This document shows, piece by piece, positions 12,439 to 57,399 of a stretch of 64,000 bases of DNA. A model generated the notes under the pieces. The model made no database searches and was not told the DNA's origin. It saw only the letters and a program-made list of their open reading frames with translations. The position numbers and the translations under genes were made by a program. The stretch lies in NCBI GenBank assembly GCA_900316315.1, contig ONCK01000002.1, positions 1-64,000 of the forward strand. Reading direction: 5' to 3'. Position 1 is the first letter of the stretch. Each line of letters begins with the position of its first letter. Origin of the DNA: an uncultured Prevotellaceae bacterium. Its GTDB lineage: Bacteria; Bacteroidota; Bacteroidia; Bacteroidales; Bacteroidaceae.

Positions 12439-13655
12439 GTAAAAAGTTCCAATTTTAGCGTCCTTCTCAGCTTCATCATGACAAATTTTTCCGCGACCCA
12501 TCCTCCACCTCTGTACCGGTTCCTCATCACCGTCCGCCCAGGCTTCAGTGTTCTGTCCTCTCATTGTCGGCCACATCCGCAGACTACCCTTTTCGCTATT
12601 CCCCTGGCTGCTTCGCAATGACAGGACGAGGATCAACCGATGAATTCATGGGTGAGAAATGATATGCCGCACACGCACATCTCAAAGAGAAGGTGGAAGC
12701 GTACAGTAATTAGTGCTTTTACAAGCATGGGGACATACCGGGTACAGTTGCTCCTTTACCTCTTCGATGGAATGTCGCGATGAGATGATGATGGTTGTCA
12801 ATGACGTCAAAAAAATATCTCAGGTCAAGCTGTGTATATCTTTCGGGAGGCTCCAGTACAAAGTTCGTTTACCCTCATGATAGGCTGTCATCTTAGCTGA
12901 TACGAGAGATAAGTCCCTTTTCTCTTTGTGTTGTATCGTAGCGCTGTCTGTCCTCTATAGATGGGAGAGGAAAAAATGGATGCTCTTGTAAATCTCCTGC
13001 CGATTTCAAAATTCTTCTCCGTTTGACATGAATTGGTATATCGGTCCATTCTCTGCTGATCCGACTAAGACTGAGACTTCGGGATTTGGCGTATGGATAA
13101 GTAATTTTATATAGATAATTTCTGTAAGTGGATAAAACGGGCACCGTCTTCGATGAAGAACATACCGTGTTTGCACTACAAGGTCGGACTTATTTTAAAT
13201 TAGGTCCGATTTATTTTATTTTGAACTAGATGTTGTGTTGTTGTCGACTGATACAGAGTAAGTTATAAAATATCTAATTTTAATGTAATTCTTTGATGAT
13301 CAGCTGCTTTAAGCTGCGTTTGGCTGTCGCCTTCTCCTTCTTTTGTGTTTCCGAGCTGACGGGATGAGGAATGATTCTTATATAACTTTTTGGAAGGTCT
13401 AAGACCGCGCGGGAGCCTAAGGCTCCACGTATCATGTCCTGCCGGGATTGACCACTCCTGTTAAGACGAAAATCCGCGCAGCCTTTGGCTGCCTATCCAG
13501 CTTGCGCCCCTGTCAAAGCGGCGGCCTTAGGCTGCGCGTATCACGCCTAGATAGGACAGGGAGGCTGCTTTGAAAAGTCAACTTTGCAATGAGAAAAAGA
13601 TAGGAGGCTGCAAGGTCGACAAGAGGAGCCAAAAGTGCGCTTTTGGGCGAAAAAT
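12439..13655. other. 1.2-kb region without a recognisable gene
   Basis: No ORF has family features. The longest is 83 codons on the minus strand at 12893-13144, with no promoter and an odd composition. The stretch includes two or three copies of the interspersed palindrome (13413-13548). It looks like decayed sequence between an operon start and the winged-helix gene. Confidence 0.5.
13413..13548. repeat. Interspersed palindromic element cluster (copies 1-3)
   Basis: Copy 1 (13413-13446): hairpin GAGCC-TAA-GGCTC followed by CACGTATCATGTCCTGCCGGG-like sequence. Copy 2 (13478-13492): GCAGCC-TTT-GGCTGC. Copy 3 (13521-13548): GGCC-TTA-GGCTGC followed by GCGTATCACGCC. The arms differ between copies but stay complementary. 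Related copies are near 40.7, 41.8, 44.0 and 57.3 kb. Confidence 0.75.
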
Positions 13656-40741: not shown

Positions 40742-40830
40742 GTAGCCGACGGCTGCGCGGCGGCCTAAGGTCGCGCGTAAATCGCCTTTCGGCTTCCAAT
40801 CTTGTCAAGGCGTGAATCGCGCAGCCATTG
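40742..40830. repeat. Interspersed palindromic element (copy, degenerate)
   Basis: Hairpin TAGCC-GAC-GGCTG, then GCGGCCTAAGGTCGC, GCGTAAATCGCC, and a distal part (40774-40826) that aligns with 44037-44091 of the copy inside the TamB-like gene (GTCAAGGCG shared). It starts directly at the guaA stop codon. Confidence 0.65.
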
Positions 40831-40896
40831 ACCGCTATAAAACGGAGACTGATAATAAAAAAACAGGCGAGTAGTCATTTTTTTTACCTCATCCCC

Positions 40897-41152: not shown

Positions 41153-41191
41153 TACGGCTTCAGATGTTACATCTTGAAGCCGTATTTTTTT
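41153..41191 (+). terminator. Strong intrinsic terminator of the tRNA pair
   Basis: TACGGCTTCAGATG (41153-41166), loop TTA, CATCTTGAAGCCGTA (41170-41184, one bulged T), followed by seven T (41185-41191). It lies 7 bases after tRNA-Glu. Confidence 0.85.
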
Positions 41192-42109
41192 GTCCCCTCG
41201 CCAACGGCGGCCGAAGGGTAGCCTTTGGCTGCTGTCCACCAGTCGGTGAAGTATTTGCAGCCGTCGGGGAGGTCGTGATGATGGAGGCTGGATAGAATGG
41301 ACTGAAGCTGATGGAACAGCGCCTCGCACGGTGCATCCTTGTCAGGATACATGTGGAGCGACAACTGCTTCTCCTTGAGCGGCGCTAGGAAAGCAGAAAA
41401 CTTGTGCGGCTTGAGCAGCGTAGCCGAAGGGATGGCGATGGCTTTGCGGACCTAGGAGTGCATCGCCCAGCAGTCCGAACAGTTCTCTGTCACCCACAAT
41501 TTGTCTCCGTCGTGCAGCCGTAGCGGCCTGGCAGATTGTACAACGTGGCACTGACTGCCCGGTGGAAACCTAAAACGTTCGCCCTTTTTGCACACGGTCT
41601 TTTTCCAATTTAGATTATGGAACTGTATGCCAATCAGGTTGCCCAGCGTATCGATGTAAGAGATGGTGAGCCAGAGGATGCCTCCTTTGTTACGCCACGA
41701 CGTTAGGGGGCCCAGCGTACCACACGGGGGCCGATGTACCGTTCATCGTAGAGGAAGTGGCGCGCCTCATTGCTCCGCCAGGGCTGAAGCTGGTAGCGCT
41801 CATAGCGGTCTGCATCAAAGGGCAGTCTAAGGCTGCGCGTATCACGCCCTGACGGGTTTGCCTGTATTCTGCCTCTGGCTGACGCAGGATGCAGTAGCCA
41901 TTGCCCAGCCAACGACAAGTGTCGATGAAGTCCTTGCCCAGAACTTGGCGGGTGAGGTTGATGACATCGCCATGCGCCCTACACGACCAGCAACGGAACG
42001 TGTTGGTGCGCTCATGAAATGATATACTCGGGTGATGGCCTTTGTGGAAGTGGCTCAACTCTAAATCAAGATACCCTTCAAAAAATAACAGTATCTGTAT
42101 AAAACTCAT
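41167..42109 (-). pseudogene. Decayed CHC2 zinc-finger (DnaG-like primase/mobilisation) gene
   Basis: The N-terminal part (42109 to about 41890) reads SHFHKGHHPSISFHERTNTFRCWSCRAHGDVINL, the CHC2 zinc-ribbon pattern of mobile-element primase proteins; the first zinc Cys is replaced by Ser. Downstream fragments continue in shifting frames (SNEARHFLYDERYIGPRVVRW; WLTISYIDTLGNLIGIQFHN; GKYFTDWW-like CKYFTDWWTAAKG). The last ends inside the tRNA terminator at 41167. At least three frame changes and a repeat insertion at 41821-41856. It is a relic of an integrated element beside the tRNAs. Confidence 0.75.
41821..41856. repeat. Interspersed palindromic element inside the CHC2 pseudogene
   Basis: GGCAGTC-TAA-GGCTGC, then GCGTATCACGCCCTGACGGG. 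On the minus (coding) strand it reads TRQGVIRAALDC, the same frame and peptide core as the copy in the TamB-like gene. Confidence 0.8.
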
Positions 42110-42927: not shown

Positions 42928-45900
42928 TTATTTCTCTTTCTTTACCGGCGCGGGAGTCTTGGGCTTGCGTCGGAAGAGGTCGGAGAGGCGATTGAAGGAG
43001 CGCTGGAACTGTATGCCGCCTCCTTGGGTGGAGAGAGAGGAGCGGGAGAAGTACCGATTGTTGGTTTCGCTATAAGCTTTGAGGCTGAGGGTGCCCTGCT
43101 TATTGAGCAGATAGCGGAGGTTGAAGTCTCCTACAAAATTGTTGGCATAGGTGTTTTGTTCCCGGTATCCGAAGTTGCCATTGAGCAGGAGTCGGTGTTG
43201 GAGGAGGCTGCCCTGCAGTTGTCCGCCGACCTCCATGTCCTCCCATCCCAGGCGGCCGGTGGAGACAGAGGGGCCTATCTGCCAGTCCTTGATATGGAGG
43301 GCTTGATTGATGAAGTTGCCAAGCTGGCTGCCCAGAGTGCCGGCAAAGAGGCTCTGCATGGCGACGGTGGACTGGGCGGGAGTGGATGAGCCGGAGGAGG
43401 TGGCATAGTCGTAGGTATAAAAACGACCGACGGTAAGCAGGTAGAGCATCTGCGTATTGAGGTCTTCCTGAGAGGAGATGACGCTGTGGAGGGTGCGCTC
43501 GAGGTCGTCGCCTGCGGTGGGAAACTCGAGCCCGAAGCTGACCTCGGGACGGCTGCTCTTTCCGCTGAAGTTGAGCAGGCAGTTTACATTGGTGGTGGCA
43601 TTGCTCATTTCTGCGCCGAGATTGAGGTCACTGAGGGAGACGGAGTGAACCTGGTAGATGCCTTGCAGGTCGATGTCGCCGTCGTCGGCGCGGCCGGAGA
43701 AGCGCAAGGTGCCTCCAGGCCGGATGTCAAAGATGCGATATAGAAGTTCGCGCATGGTGAGCTGGTAGCTGCCTCCGGTGGTCTGGTAGAGGCCGTTGAG
43801 ACTGAAATGTCCCTTGTTATACCAGCGGGCTTGGATGGGGCCGCTGCCGCGTAGGCGAAAGCCGTCGCCGCTCTTGCGGTCGGTGTAAATGACCAGCTGG
43901 GTTTCCGGCGTGACATCGGCATTGACGGTGAGATAGATGTCGGTTGTGGAGTCACGGAAGCCAGAGGCTTCGCGTATCACGCCCTGACGGGGTGGCGGAA
44001 AGTCGCGCGTATCTTGCCCTGCTGGGGCCAGAGCCTGCGCATAAATTGCCATTCGGCTTTTATTCCTGTCAAGGCGAACACCCGCGTAGCCTTCGGCTGA
44101 TCTATTATGGAAGCGGATAAACTCAGTGCCATCGGAGCTGGAGCGGTCGGAGGAGTCATAGTAAAAGGTGGAGCCTGCGCGTGGCGTAAGCTGAAGCTTG
44201 GCATGGACAGCGGAGGTGGTGCCCCACAGGCGCGCATTGCCGTCGGTCCGTATGCTGCCCCAGAAGAGCTCTTCGTCAGGTCCCATGTGATGGTATGCCA
44301 GAAGGTGGTCGGCCTGCATGGAGAGATCGTAGCCGAAGTCGGAGAGATGGTCGTGAGTAACGGCTCCGCTGAGGGTACCGGTGCCGCCGTAGAGGTCGTG
44401 GAGGCGCACTCCATCGAAGCGGAAGTGGTCGGGCGTGAACCTAATCGTATCGCCGATGATGGCGTAATGTGCGCCCGTGACGGGCGGAGTGAAGGAGAGG
44501 GTGTCGATGACCTCCACGCCATCGAGCTCCATTTTGCCGAACGAGCCGTGGAGATGCAGCTGACCGCAGGCAGTGCCAGTGACCGGCCCGATGACGCCTG
44601 CCAGCCAGGAGTCGAGGAACTGAAGCGGAGTGTGGCGCGAACCAAAGTGGAGGCTGATGGCATTCTGCCCGATATCAACATAGCCGCGGATGGTCGTCTC
44701 GTCGCGCTGGGTGAGGCGAGTGACGGCGTCGATGATGATGCGCTTGGTCGGGGCTTCCCAGCGGGCATCTACGAGGAGGGTCCCCATGGGGCCGCCTTCG
44801 AAGCAAAAGTCTTTGACTGTGAGTCGGGCGGGGATGTCCTTGTCCTGCGTAGTCGTGGGGAGGTAGGCTGTGCCGCTCAGTTTGCCCGAGAAGTCGACAG
44901 GGTGGAAATTGAGCAGGTCCTGTATATGGGCAATCTCGATGTCATGGAGCTCGACGCGATAGGGGGAGATGGCGGACTCGGAGTTGCTGACATACAAGTA
45001 TTGGTCTCCCCGGCGTATCCCGAGAGGAGTGAGGCTGATGCCAGAGCGCGTCCACCCGATGCGGGCTTCGTCGATATGCCACAGACTGTCCTTGATGCTG
45101 ACCTCTGAGGGGAGGAGATGGATGTCGGCGATATGGCCCGCGGAATCAGCGGCGTGAAACTGGCAGACGGCACGGAGGGTCCCACTGGTGCCGTGAGGGG
45201 CGACGGTGCTCCACTCGACCTGAGGCGTGAGCCTATTGTTTGAGATACCGGAGTGGATGGCGATACGGACATCGTCGTTGCCGAAGGTCTTGGTCAGCTG
45301 GGTGAGGAGCTGGAGCGAGTCGGCGCTGCCGGAGAGGTAGAGCGTGGCCTGGGAGTAGGGAGCTCCATCGATGTGGAAGCCGGGGGCCCAAGCTGTGAGG
45401 CTGATACGCTGTCTCCTACCATCGAGATAGCCGGAGACATGGGCTGGTCGGTCGAGGGAGATCGGAATGCCAAGGAAGTACTGCAGTGCGCGCGCGTCCT
45501 TGAGATGCAGCCGGAAGTCGGCGCTGCCGGCGTGGGTGGGGGTATAGCGGATATACTCGCGCAGGGACGGAAATGAACGGGCGATGAAAGTGAGAACGCT
45601 ATGGGCGGTCTGCCTGATATCCTGACTGGCGGAGAGATGGGCTTCGGCGATATCGCTGTGAAGATTGAGGCGGCGGCCTCCGTCAGTGACCTCGACGAGG
45701 AGCGAGTCAAGGCTGTAGGGACCGGAAGGGCTCCTCATGGATAGATGGCGCAGTGCGAGCCGATTGTGGCCTCTCAGGTGCATATCGCTGATGGAGGCGG
45801 AGAGGTAGCCGCGCACCTCGGCATCCCCATAGTGTGAGGAGAGGTGGAGGGCCTTGGGCTTGAGCATCGAGACATCGGCCGTGAGCCTGATATTGCTGGG

Positions 45901-47478
45901 GCCTCCGACAAGGTCGGTCTCGACTTGGGCCCGGACGCGGGCATTGGGATCGTTGACGTCAAGCTGAGCCTGCAGGTGGTGGGCTGTGAGTTGGCCGTCA
46001 GCCTGTACATGGGCATAAGGATAGCCGTGGAGCGAGAGCTGACTCAGGTTGGCGGTCATATGGAGGTCGAGTGGGGAGAGGGAGCCTGCTGCCGTCACGG
46101 TGCCGGAAGTGGGTAGGGGAGCTTGGGCACTCCATCGGGACAGCAGGGAGTTAGGGCAGAATTTGTCCCACCGGACGCCATTGAGACGAAGGGAGGCCTG
46201 CAGACGAGGGCCGAAGCAGTCCAATTGCTCATCGATGATACCGGCGTCACACCGCGTGTGGCCCTTGAGTCGCAGGCGTGTGCCCTGGAGGGTGAAGTCG
46301 GCGCTTTGCTGCACCTGTCCCAAGGCGGCTACCTGCTGCCTGAGGCCTTGGCTTTGGTGGATGAGGGTTAGCAATGCAGTGGTCGCCTGAGGAGAGACGG
46401 ACAGCTGCGCGAGATGGCCGGCCAGCCGGAGAGGACGCCCGTGGATGAAGTCCTGATACAAGCGTCCCTGCGCATCGACGGACAGGCTCTGGCGGCGACT
46501 GTCGTGCATTTGAACCTGAATGTCGACGGGGTGACCCGCAATGGGGCCTGCCGCACGGCGAACCTCCTGGGCTTGAATGTCGTATAATACGGACTGTTCG
46601 GCGAGAAAGTTACTCTCGGGCTGTCGCAAGCCAGGCATCAGACACGAGAAATCGGAGGGGGACAAGGTGCCGCGGGCGCGTAATTGGCGGACGTGCTCCT
46701 GTCCCCGCTGGAGACGGGCCGTAAGTTGAGGAATCTGCAGGCTTGAGTGGGGCAGGCGAAGGTCAAGATGATGGACTGTCAGGTCCTGTCCGGCAAGGAG
46801 GGCATGGCAGCGCAGACGCTTCAGTTGGAACCCACTCTGCTCCTTAAACTGGAGTTGGCGGATCCGTATGTCAAGGTCGTCGTGGCGCAGACTGCCGGTG
46901 CGGAAGTTGCCGTTGATCTCTGAGAGATGGATGTGGCGGGGATTAAGCTGGCCCGGTGTCTGAAAGGCGTTGAGAATGTCGTAACGGAGGTCCACATTGC
47001 GGCAGATGAAGGAGCGCGCACTGAACTTCAGTTTGGGCCCTTGGGAGCCGGAGCTGCTTGAGAGGCTGTCAAGCAGGAACTGGTAATTGGGCTTAGCTCC
47101 GTCTGTCGCGCGATAGAGCCTCACCTTGCAGTCGTACAGGCCGGCATGCTTGACGACGAGCTCCTTGCGCAGCAGCGGTATCATCTCCAGCCGGACGCCG
47201 AGATGGCGGGCACAGAGCATGGGCTGCCCCGACTGGTCCATGACCAGAATGCTGTCGACGTCGACCCGATTGAGCAGGCCGATGCTGATACTCCGGATGC
47301 TGACTTGTGTACCCAGTTTGGTGCTGAGCATGTCGGATACGTCTCGCCCCAGCTGCCGCTCGACGGAAGGAAGGCTCAGGAGCAACAGGGGACAGAGGTA
47401 TACGGCCCCTGCTGTGACAAGTAGGATGCGTAGGATGTAGTTGAGTCGTTTCGTAAGGCCGGATATTTTTGCGGACAA
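42928..47478 (-). CDS. TamB-like (DUF490) inner-membrane/periplasmic giant
   Basis: 1516 residues. One N-terminal membrane anchor (about 14-36: YILRILLVTAGAVYLCPLLLLSLPS), then a long beta-rich body as in AsmA/TamB bridge proteins that carry lipids or assist outer-membrane assembly. The C-terminal DUF490 domain (about 1175-1500) is clear: TTDIYLTVNADVTPETQLVIYTD, YQTTGGSYQLTMRELLYRIFDIRPGGTLRFSG, and SLFAGTLGSQLGNFINQALHIKDWQIGPSVSTGRLGWEDMEVGGQL. Residues about 1127-1174 are encoded by an interspersed repeat and have no counterpart in the expected flow of the domain. No tamA-like gene nearby. Confidence 0.93.
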   Translation of the reverse strand: MSAKISGLTKRLNYILRILLVTAGAVYLCPLLLLSLPSVERQLGRDVSDMLSTKLGTQVSIRSISIGLLNRVDVDSILVMDQSGQPMLCARHLGVRLEMIPLLRKELVVKHAGLYDCKVRLYRATDGAKPNYQFLLDSLSSSSGSQGPKLKFSARSFICRNVDLRYDILNAFQTPGQLNPRHIHLSEINGNFRTGSLRHDDLDIRIRQLQFKEQSGFQLKRLRCHALLAGQDLTVHHLDLRLPHSSLQIPQLTARLQRGQEHVRQLRARGTLSPSDFSCLMPGLRQPESNFLAEQSVLYDIQAQEVRRAAGPIAGHPVDIQVQMHDSRRQSLSVDAQGRLYQDFIHGRPLRLAGHLAQLSVSPQATTALLTLIHQSQGLRQQVAALGQVQQSADFTLQGTRLRLKGHTRCDAGIIDEQLDCFGPRLQASLRLNGVRWDKFCPNSLLSRWSAQAPLPTSGTVTAAGSLSPLDLHMTANLSQLSLHGYPYAHVQADGQLTAHHLQAQLDVNDPNARVRAQVETDLVGGPSNIRLTADVSMLKPKALHLSSHYGDAEVRGYLSASISDMHLRGHNRLALRHLSMRSPSGPYSLDSLLVEVTDGGRRLNLHSDIAEAHLSASQDIRQTAHSVLTFIARSFPSLREYIRYTPTHAGSADFRLHLKDARALQYFLGIPISLDRPAHVSGYLDGRRQRISLTAWAPGFHIDGAPYSQATLYLSGSADSLQLLTQLTKTFGNDDVRIAIHSGISNNRLTPQVEWSTVAPHGTSGTLRAVCQFHAADSAGHIADIHLLPSEVSIKDSLWHIDEARIGWTRSGISLTPLGIRRGDQYLYVSNSESAISPYRVELHDIEIAHIQDLLNFHPVDFSGKLSGTAYLPTTTQDKDIPARLTVKDFCFEGGPMGTLLVDARWEAPTKRIIIDAVTRLTQRDETTIRGYVDIGQNAISLHFGSRHTPLQFLDSWLAGVIGPVTGTACGQLHLHGSFGKMELDGVEVIDTLSFTPPVTGAHYAIIGDTIRFTPDHFRFDGVRLHDLYGGTGTLSGAVTHDHLSDFGYDLSMQADHLLAYHHMGPDEELFWGSIRTDGNARLWGTTSAVHAKLQLTPRAGSTFYYDSSDRSSSDGTEFIRFHNRSAEGYAGVRLDRNKSRMAIYAQALAPAGQDTRDFPPPRQGVIREASGFRDSTTDIYLTVNADVTPETQLVIYTDRKSGDGFRLRGSGPIQARWYNKGHFSLNGLYQTTGGSYQLTMRELLYRIFDIRPGGTLRFSGRADDGDIDLQGIYQVHSVSLSDLNLGAEMSNATTNVNCLLNFSGKSSRPEVSFGLEFPTAGDDLERTLHSVISSQEDLNTQMLYLLTVGRFYTYDYATSSGSSTPAQSTVAMQSLFAGTLGSQLGNFINQALHIKDWQIGPSVSTGRLGWEDMEVGGQLQGSLLQHRLLLNGNFGYREQNTYANNFVGDFNLRYLLNKQGTLSLKAYSETNNRYFSRSSLSTQGGGIQFQRSFNRLSDLFRRKPKTPAPVKKEK
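43957..44100. repeat. 144-bp interspersed palindromic element in frame inside the TamB-like gene
   Basis: One end is the hairpin GAAGCC-AGA-GGCTTC (43957-43971) followed by GCGTATCACGCCCTGACGGGG. A second GCGCGTATCTTGCCCTG copy lies at 44005-44022. The other end is the hairpin TAGCC-TTC-GGCTGA (44087-44100). The length is exactly 48 codons and contains no stop in the reading frame of the host gene. Encoded peptide core: PPPRQGVIREASGF. Confidence 0.82.
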
Positions 47479-57323: not shown

Positions 57324-57399
57324 TAGCCTAAGGCTGCGCGTATCACGCCATCCGGCATATGTGCCCGTCAGTGTGAACTTCTGCGAAGCCTTAGGCTTC
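57324..57399. repeat. Interspersed palindromic element
   Basis: Hairpin AGCC-TAA-GGCT (57325-57335), then GCGCGTATCACGCC (57337-57349), spacer, and a closing hairpin GAAGCC-TTA-GGCTTC (57385-57399). About 76 bp with hairpins at both ends; same orientation as the other copies. Confidence 0.8.

Follow-up and report, generated by a model that had tools for sequence, protein, structure and literature searches.

Repeat elements lying in frame within genes have been described from Rickettsia, Wolbachia, enterobacteria, Neisseria, and other bacteria (PMC3733652, PMC2229807, PMC4224334, PMC10969869; statements on cited papers refer, here and below, to the portions of their text that were available). 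The palindromic elements of Rickettsia (RPEs) are 105–146 bp long, repeated, and located in frame within conserved genes, and a guanylate kinase bearing one of them is translated and active, with its substrate affinity changed (PMC2229807). In Wolbachia, WPE-like in-frame insertions are present in addA, addB, and priA (PMC4224334). The GTAG/CGTC REPs treated by Di Nocera et al. (2013) are palindromic units of 20–40 bp, often arranged head to head and mostly extragenic, some of which are situated in frame in genes, many of these serving DNA replication and repair; flexible-linker tolerance is among the explanations given for intragenic REPs (section 17), insertions in repair genes are held to be possibly non-fortuitous, the CGTC type is without a dedicated transposase, and CGTC repeats are listed for Bacteroidetes with no statement of intragenic position there (PMC3733652). 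ERIC, NEMIS/Correia, and further ORF-bearing MITEs are small non-autonomous repeats that have been fused in frame to genes (PMC2229807, PMC10969869). Repeat elements of Bacteroidales include the BrickBuilt MITEs of Porphyromonas gingivalis (PMC4596501), a text that nowhere uses "in-frame", "in frame", or "intragenic".

The present analysis concerns a 64,000-nucleotide stretch of DNA (hereafter the window) from an uncultured Prevotellaceae bacterium (GCA_900316315.1; 2.45 Mb in 31 contigs), for which an earlier note, made from the letters alone, had described a repeat element inserted in frame in a TamB-like protein. We consider it probable, at roughly 80%, that the segment belongs to an interspersed, REP-like repeat restricted to this species, and that it is tolerated in a sequence-indifferent linker of TamB and translated there, the resulting peptide having no selected function of its own.

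The repeat family is built from a unit of about 33 bp, approximately GCAGCCTAAGGCTGCGCGTATCACGCCCTGACG, in which a 6-bp hairpin with a 3-base loop is followed by a separate small hairpin of 3–4 bp, and many units form pairs of opposite orientation. Among 39 aligned units, standard base pairs fill 89.8% of the hairpin cells, compared with at most 42.4% in controls with slid partners, and 12 cells are changed on both sides versus 5.3 in shuffles; two of the five pairing and covariation measures did not rise above shuffles (4 vs 3.4 for pairs changed on both sides, and 12 vs 11.3 for further pair types). The 14 units that reach the last column of this alignment end in GACG or GACA (complement CGTC or TGTC), whereas 5 others close with GCC and the remaining 20 are shorter, the search having trimmed the ends. 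Three of the six frames of the consensus unit, read from its sequence, are free of stops.

A profile search over 246 kb, comprising the window and 26 stretches picked around matches, recovered 58 units in 36 places at E < 0.05, with units at E ≥ 0.05 excluded. With three mismatches at most, a pattern search yielded 30 matches, compared with 1 for the reversed pattern; two of its matches, C17:239246 and C17:102562, were dropped from the counts because the nhmmer profile did not recover them. The genome-wide model search returned at least 80 matches at E ≤ 1 and at least 55 at E ≤ 0.01, which are lower bounds since scoring covered 150 of some 900 candidates. Extragenic copies in the window include an inverted pair of units at 40760–40835, directly downstream of guaA, while three units (+ − +) at 13414–13549 and another inverted pair at 57325–57399 are not spanned by any open frame of 80 codons. 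Elsewhere in the genome, eight units (E < 0.05) are packed into 1.7 kb at G000:C29:107873-109605 (L083), and a weak, uncounted unit-like match (E 0.095) lies within a CsgG-like gene at G000:C16:107395-107421 (L100).

The element in the TamB-like gene is a composite occupying 43957–44100 on the minus strand. Unit 1 (43957–43989, plus strand; family covariance model E 4.6e-10 over the whole genome) forms the hairpin GAAGCC-AGA-GGCTTC, is the best unit with 29 of 33 bases equal to the consensus, and reads RQGVIREASGF from its complement in the host frame. Unit 4 lies inverted at the other end (44067–44099, minus strand; E 2.1e-6 over the whole genome). Between them are partial unit 2 (43999–44021, plus strand), which is weak alone (nhmmer E 0.024 or 0.11) and is supported by the layout of the copy at C26:4988-5149, and partial unit 3 (44027–44052, plus strand; nhmmer E 1.2 alone), which pairs in alignment with the third unit of that copy; both partial units were left out of the count of 58. 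The copy at C26:4988-5149 has a like layout (+ + + −) and shares 72% identity with the element over 109 bases. Outside the five known sites, the consensus is matched at no more than 20 of 33 bases on either strand of the window. The element folds at −62.7 kcal/mol, compared with a shuffle mean of −49.8 (z −3.26; 1 of 200 shuffles equal). The presence of the repeat, its lack of a stop in the host frame, and the placement of its peptide at residues 1127–1174 thus agree with the earlier note, in which the span had been put at 144 bp; an element is indeed there, and the exact figure of 144 depends on where its fuzzy ends are drawn.

The host gene (42928–47478, minus strand) encodes a TamB/DUF490 protein of 1516 codons with no stop (PF04357, E 5.1e-41). 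The element had been placed just before the DUF490 core, but the Pfam match covers residues 1029–1495 and the element falls inside it, in an unconserved linker. A TamB match was found in 15 of 18 relatives, one of which (G004) has a match that misses the linker, leaving 14 aligned genus orthologues. In all 14, a linker of 25–29 residues separates the FIxF and DIYL anchors and shows no visible similarity to the 56-residue linker present here; the net gain is therefore 27–31 residues. A clean addition of exactly 48 codons, as first proposed, is ruled out by these lengths. Outside the element, only 3 residues before it and 5 after it remain between the anchors. The expectation that relatives would lack the peptide was borne out in 14 of 14 genus orthologues. 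In the wider taxonomic family, a TamB match was obtained in 76 of 80 relatives, 29 of which had loci, all 29 aligned, and 25 of these were from other genera; none of the 25 has the segment, the alignment rows being judged by reading. Linker length ranges from 23 to 59 residues across the 29 loci and over the same range in the 25 from other genera, so the length found here is not unusual by itself, and from these alignments the site looks indifferent to both sequence and length.

On the preferred reading, the element would have arrived as a mobile copy, landing where the tamB-like gene encodes a length- and sequence-indifferent linker. We infer that it displaced most of a native, orthologue-like linker and left the frame open, and that the resulting TamB-like protein is made and presumably working, with the inserted peptide neutral within it. 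The loss of the native linker may belong to the same event, by copying into a break, or to later deletion. The repeat would be a passenger, tolerated because it occupies sequence-indifferent linkers, and its intragenic copies would survive in linkers or tails if the frame is kept, as in RuvA.

A different possibility is that the peptide was recruited, with the repeat supplying a functional linker, basic and containing proline and arginine, that alters the TamB-like protein and is kept by selection. The net charge of the linker is +3, compared with −6 to +1 in the 14 genus orthologues, and the linker with the insert is therefore unlike native ones in charge. In addition, unit 4 begins its loop with G, whereas 25 of the 39 aligned units have T there, with which the loop would read TAA and stop the host frame. 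All six frames of the copy at C26:4988-5149 contain a stop, whereas the element in TamB is open in the host frame. An open frame, however, is predicted by survival of the gene alone, the linker is unconserved among the aligned relatives, and RuvA uses another frame of the same repeat, and we regard recruitment as improbable. An AlphaFold model of the C-terminal third of TamB is poor as a whole (mean pLDDT 52.5), so that the low values in the insert (block means of about 30–44) give weak support for disorder.

Still more improbable, in our judgment, is that the insertion damaged a dispensable protein that is now decaying. Such a course would resemble that of a repeat-bearing CHC2 pseudogene about 2 kb away, and of the four internal copies recognised in the genome, two lie in broken frames. 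Against decay stand the 1516 codons with neither stop nor frame change, and the identity of 66–70% that the region past the insert shares with the nearest five orthologues of the genus (48–70% after the linker over all 14, two of them partial); moreover, a unit is likewise present in the core repair protein RuvA, which looks intact.

In the ruvA gene (C28:22070-22666), a 33-base unit (model E 1.7e-7; 28 of 33 bases equal to the consensus) lies in the linker between domains II and III. This linker measures 26 residues with the unit, compared with 26–33 in 13 orthologues, and the unit thus fills the linker sequence without lengthening it; the protein is otherwise complete, with RuvA_N, HHH_5, and RuvA_C above the Pfam cut-off. 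TamB and RuvA are the two intact genes known to contain internal copies. A single unit (41822–41854, plus strand; model E 7.4e-11) also occurs in the CHC2 (DnaG-like) pseudogene, within the linker that follows the zinc finger; the pseudogene runs over several frames at 41170–42109 between guaA and tamB. In this pseudogene PF01807 matches the 5′ part, the frame changes across the unit, and conserved stretches flank it; the distance between anchors is 86 nt, compared with 69 nt in the sole genus orthologue found. At C17:14124-14378, an 85-codon open frame contains a unit (nhmmer E 0.0094; 23 of 33 bases equal to the consensus) and has no Pfam match; the part after the unit has a weak likeness to response-regulator receivers (phmmer against PDB, E 0.016–0.017), and we read the frame as a regulator-like remnant.

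Two further genes carry units at their ends. In a NudC-like NUDIX protein the C-terminal tail is made up of a unit, and units occupy the 5′ end of an HhH-GPD DNA glycosylase gene (L097:3263-3829, C17). The glycosylase gene has an in-frame stop in a seemingly conserved part, and the gene upstream of it, judged by eye to be methylguanine-methyltransferase-like, seems to terminate within units. The earlier note had pointed out that the CHC2 copy yields RQGVIR in the same frame as TamB, which is the case, and a related MIRG frame is used in a second, apparently decayed, frame. RQGVIR is not the one coding frame of the repeat, since TamB, RuvA (GSQKLRESRPD, from the other strand), and the NudC-like tail (SRHDTRSLSL) use different frames and both strands; a single privileged frame is ruled out, with three frames free of stops in the consensus and different ones in use.

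The lengths at these sites bear on a variant of the preferred reading in which repeat DNA was copied into a break, or acquired by template switching, and took the place of the native linker codons in a single event, with no mobile insertion. The gain is none in RuvA, 27–31 codons for a 48-codon element in TamB, and 17 nt for a 33-nt unit in the CHC2 pseudogene, the receiver match of the regulator-like remnant is weak and present on one side of the unit only, and no RAYT-type transposase was found, all of which would suit copying. Native linker lengths vary, however, and insertion followed by ordinary deletions would thus give the same picture, and the comparison comprises four internal sites, with one orthologue for CHC2; we therefore hold this variant to be possible but doubtful.

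With respect to distribution, the repeat family was detected in none of 18 other species of the genus by model search (E ≤ 0.01), in none of 250 other genomes of the taxonomic family sample (E ≤ 1e-4), and in none of 394 genomes of the phylum sample (E ≤ 1e-4), the three samples overlapping. Diverged versions could be missed, as the model was made from this genome and the scans of the family and phylum scored 28 and 18 candidates per genome, respectively, under stricter filters; the best reading of these searches is that the repeat is probably species-specific, as sampled. A match to PF01797, the RAYT-type (Y1) transposase, was absent from the genome at E ≤ 0.01 and present in 6 of 14 control genomes, and mobilisation by a RAYT was rejected given that no Y1 gene was found. 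No mobility machinery was identified in the genome, the plasmid search gave no match, and a pattern scan of viral contigs gave none.

A different repeat is present in sister species of the genus. The RuvA linker of the species labelled G002 contains a tandem repeat unlike the one described above, with a period of 7 nt, three periods of which are read as ELGVRSE. A 44-base search placed it at nine sites in a 370-kb sample of G002, ruvA being outside the sample, and at four in a 392-kb sample of a second sister, G015 (each sample about one-sixth of the genome), and it was absent from the 246 kb of the present genome. Long open frames span the repeat at four of the nine places in G002 and at three of the four in G015. 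Pfam put names to five of these open frames. In G002, two of the arrays belong to a UvrD-type helicase with a PD-(D/E)XK domain, and the others to a methyltransferase and a radical-SAM protein; in G015 the hosts are QueA and a leucine-rich-repeat protein, and the seventh spanned place is within another G015 frame, 2555 codons long. In the helicase-nuclease (L185:1153-4686, G002:C3), the two arrays are in-frame repeats of 21 nt, or 7 codons, that encode ELGVRSE, and one of them is inside the UvrD N-terminal domain; in G002 ELGVRSE is also in frame in the methyltransferase (L182), the radical-SAM protein (L175), and the RuvA linker (L113), as it is in QueA (L208) of G015. Orthologues were compared for RuvA alone among the hosts of this repeat, and no paper on the ELGVRSE peptide appeared in the literature search, such strings being rarely printed. 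The RuvA linker of G015 found only itself in the sample search, and a repeat origin for it is thus unsupported.

Domain I of RuvA in G002, G015, and G016 (L113, L114, and L115) has about a dozen extra residues encoded by C-rich/G-rich palindromic DNA. These palindromes were rejected as interspersed repeats: two of the inserts found only their own gene in the 370-kb and 392-kb samples, and the palindromes were in no excess over one shuffle each (10 vs 8 and 7 vs 9).

Across the genus, linkers of conserved proteins may recurrently be rebuilt from each species' own repeat, REP-like in TamB and RuvA here and the unrelated 7-codon ELGVRSE in sisters, with the RuvA domain II–III linker overwritten independently in at least two species. 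Repeats would then be a standing source of linkers by replacement, not by insertion alone, a generalisation that we offer tentatively, at somewhat less than even odds. The comparison of orthologue lengths itself shifts the reading of the TamB locus from clean insertion to linker replacement, and a single RuvA linker with unrelated repeats in two species provides a test bed for how repeat DNA becomes protein sequence.

Set beside the systems with which we began, the repeat shares with GTAG and CGTC REPs short palindromic units, often in head-to-head pairs, some of which lie in frame within genes. It differs from CGTC REPs in having a 6-bp stem and a second hairpin of 3–4 bp, where the latter have one stem of 8–9 bp with a loop of 4–5 bases, and a CGTC/TGTC-like end is visible in part of its units; from the GTAG REP superfamily it is set apart by a genome with no match to a RAYT (Y1) transposase. 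RuvA and the glycosylase belong to the repair class of genes distinguished by Di Nocera et al. (PMC3733652). In-frame fusion to genes is shared with ERIC, NEMIS/Correia, and other MITEs, a class marked by terminal inverted repeats and target duplications. BrickBuilt is likewise a repeat of Bacteroidales and is likened by description.

The element had been put forward, beside the protein-coding palindromic elements of Rickettsia, as a new case in Bacteroidota. In-frame intragenic repeats were already known well outside that genus (PMC3733652, section 15; PMC2229807, PMC10969869), while novelty for Bacteroidota may stand, as no report of in-frame intragenic copies in that phylum was found in the literature searched, mostly without subscription journals. 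Two features of protein-coding palindromic repeats are present, namely many interspersed copies and the location of some in frame in conserved genes whose orthologues are without them (TamB and RuvA), and such repeats would thereby be extended to Prevotellaceae in two conserved proteins. With RPEs and WPEs, compared by description, the likeness is a repeated palindrome in frame in conserved genes, whereas here a short REP-like module occurs in arrays, the native linker is apparently mostly replaced, and the phylum is another. The comparison with Rickettsia is apt for how the element works, and the present repeat is a new example, not a new kind, because like cases are known in other bacteria.
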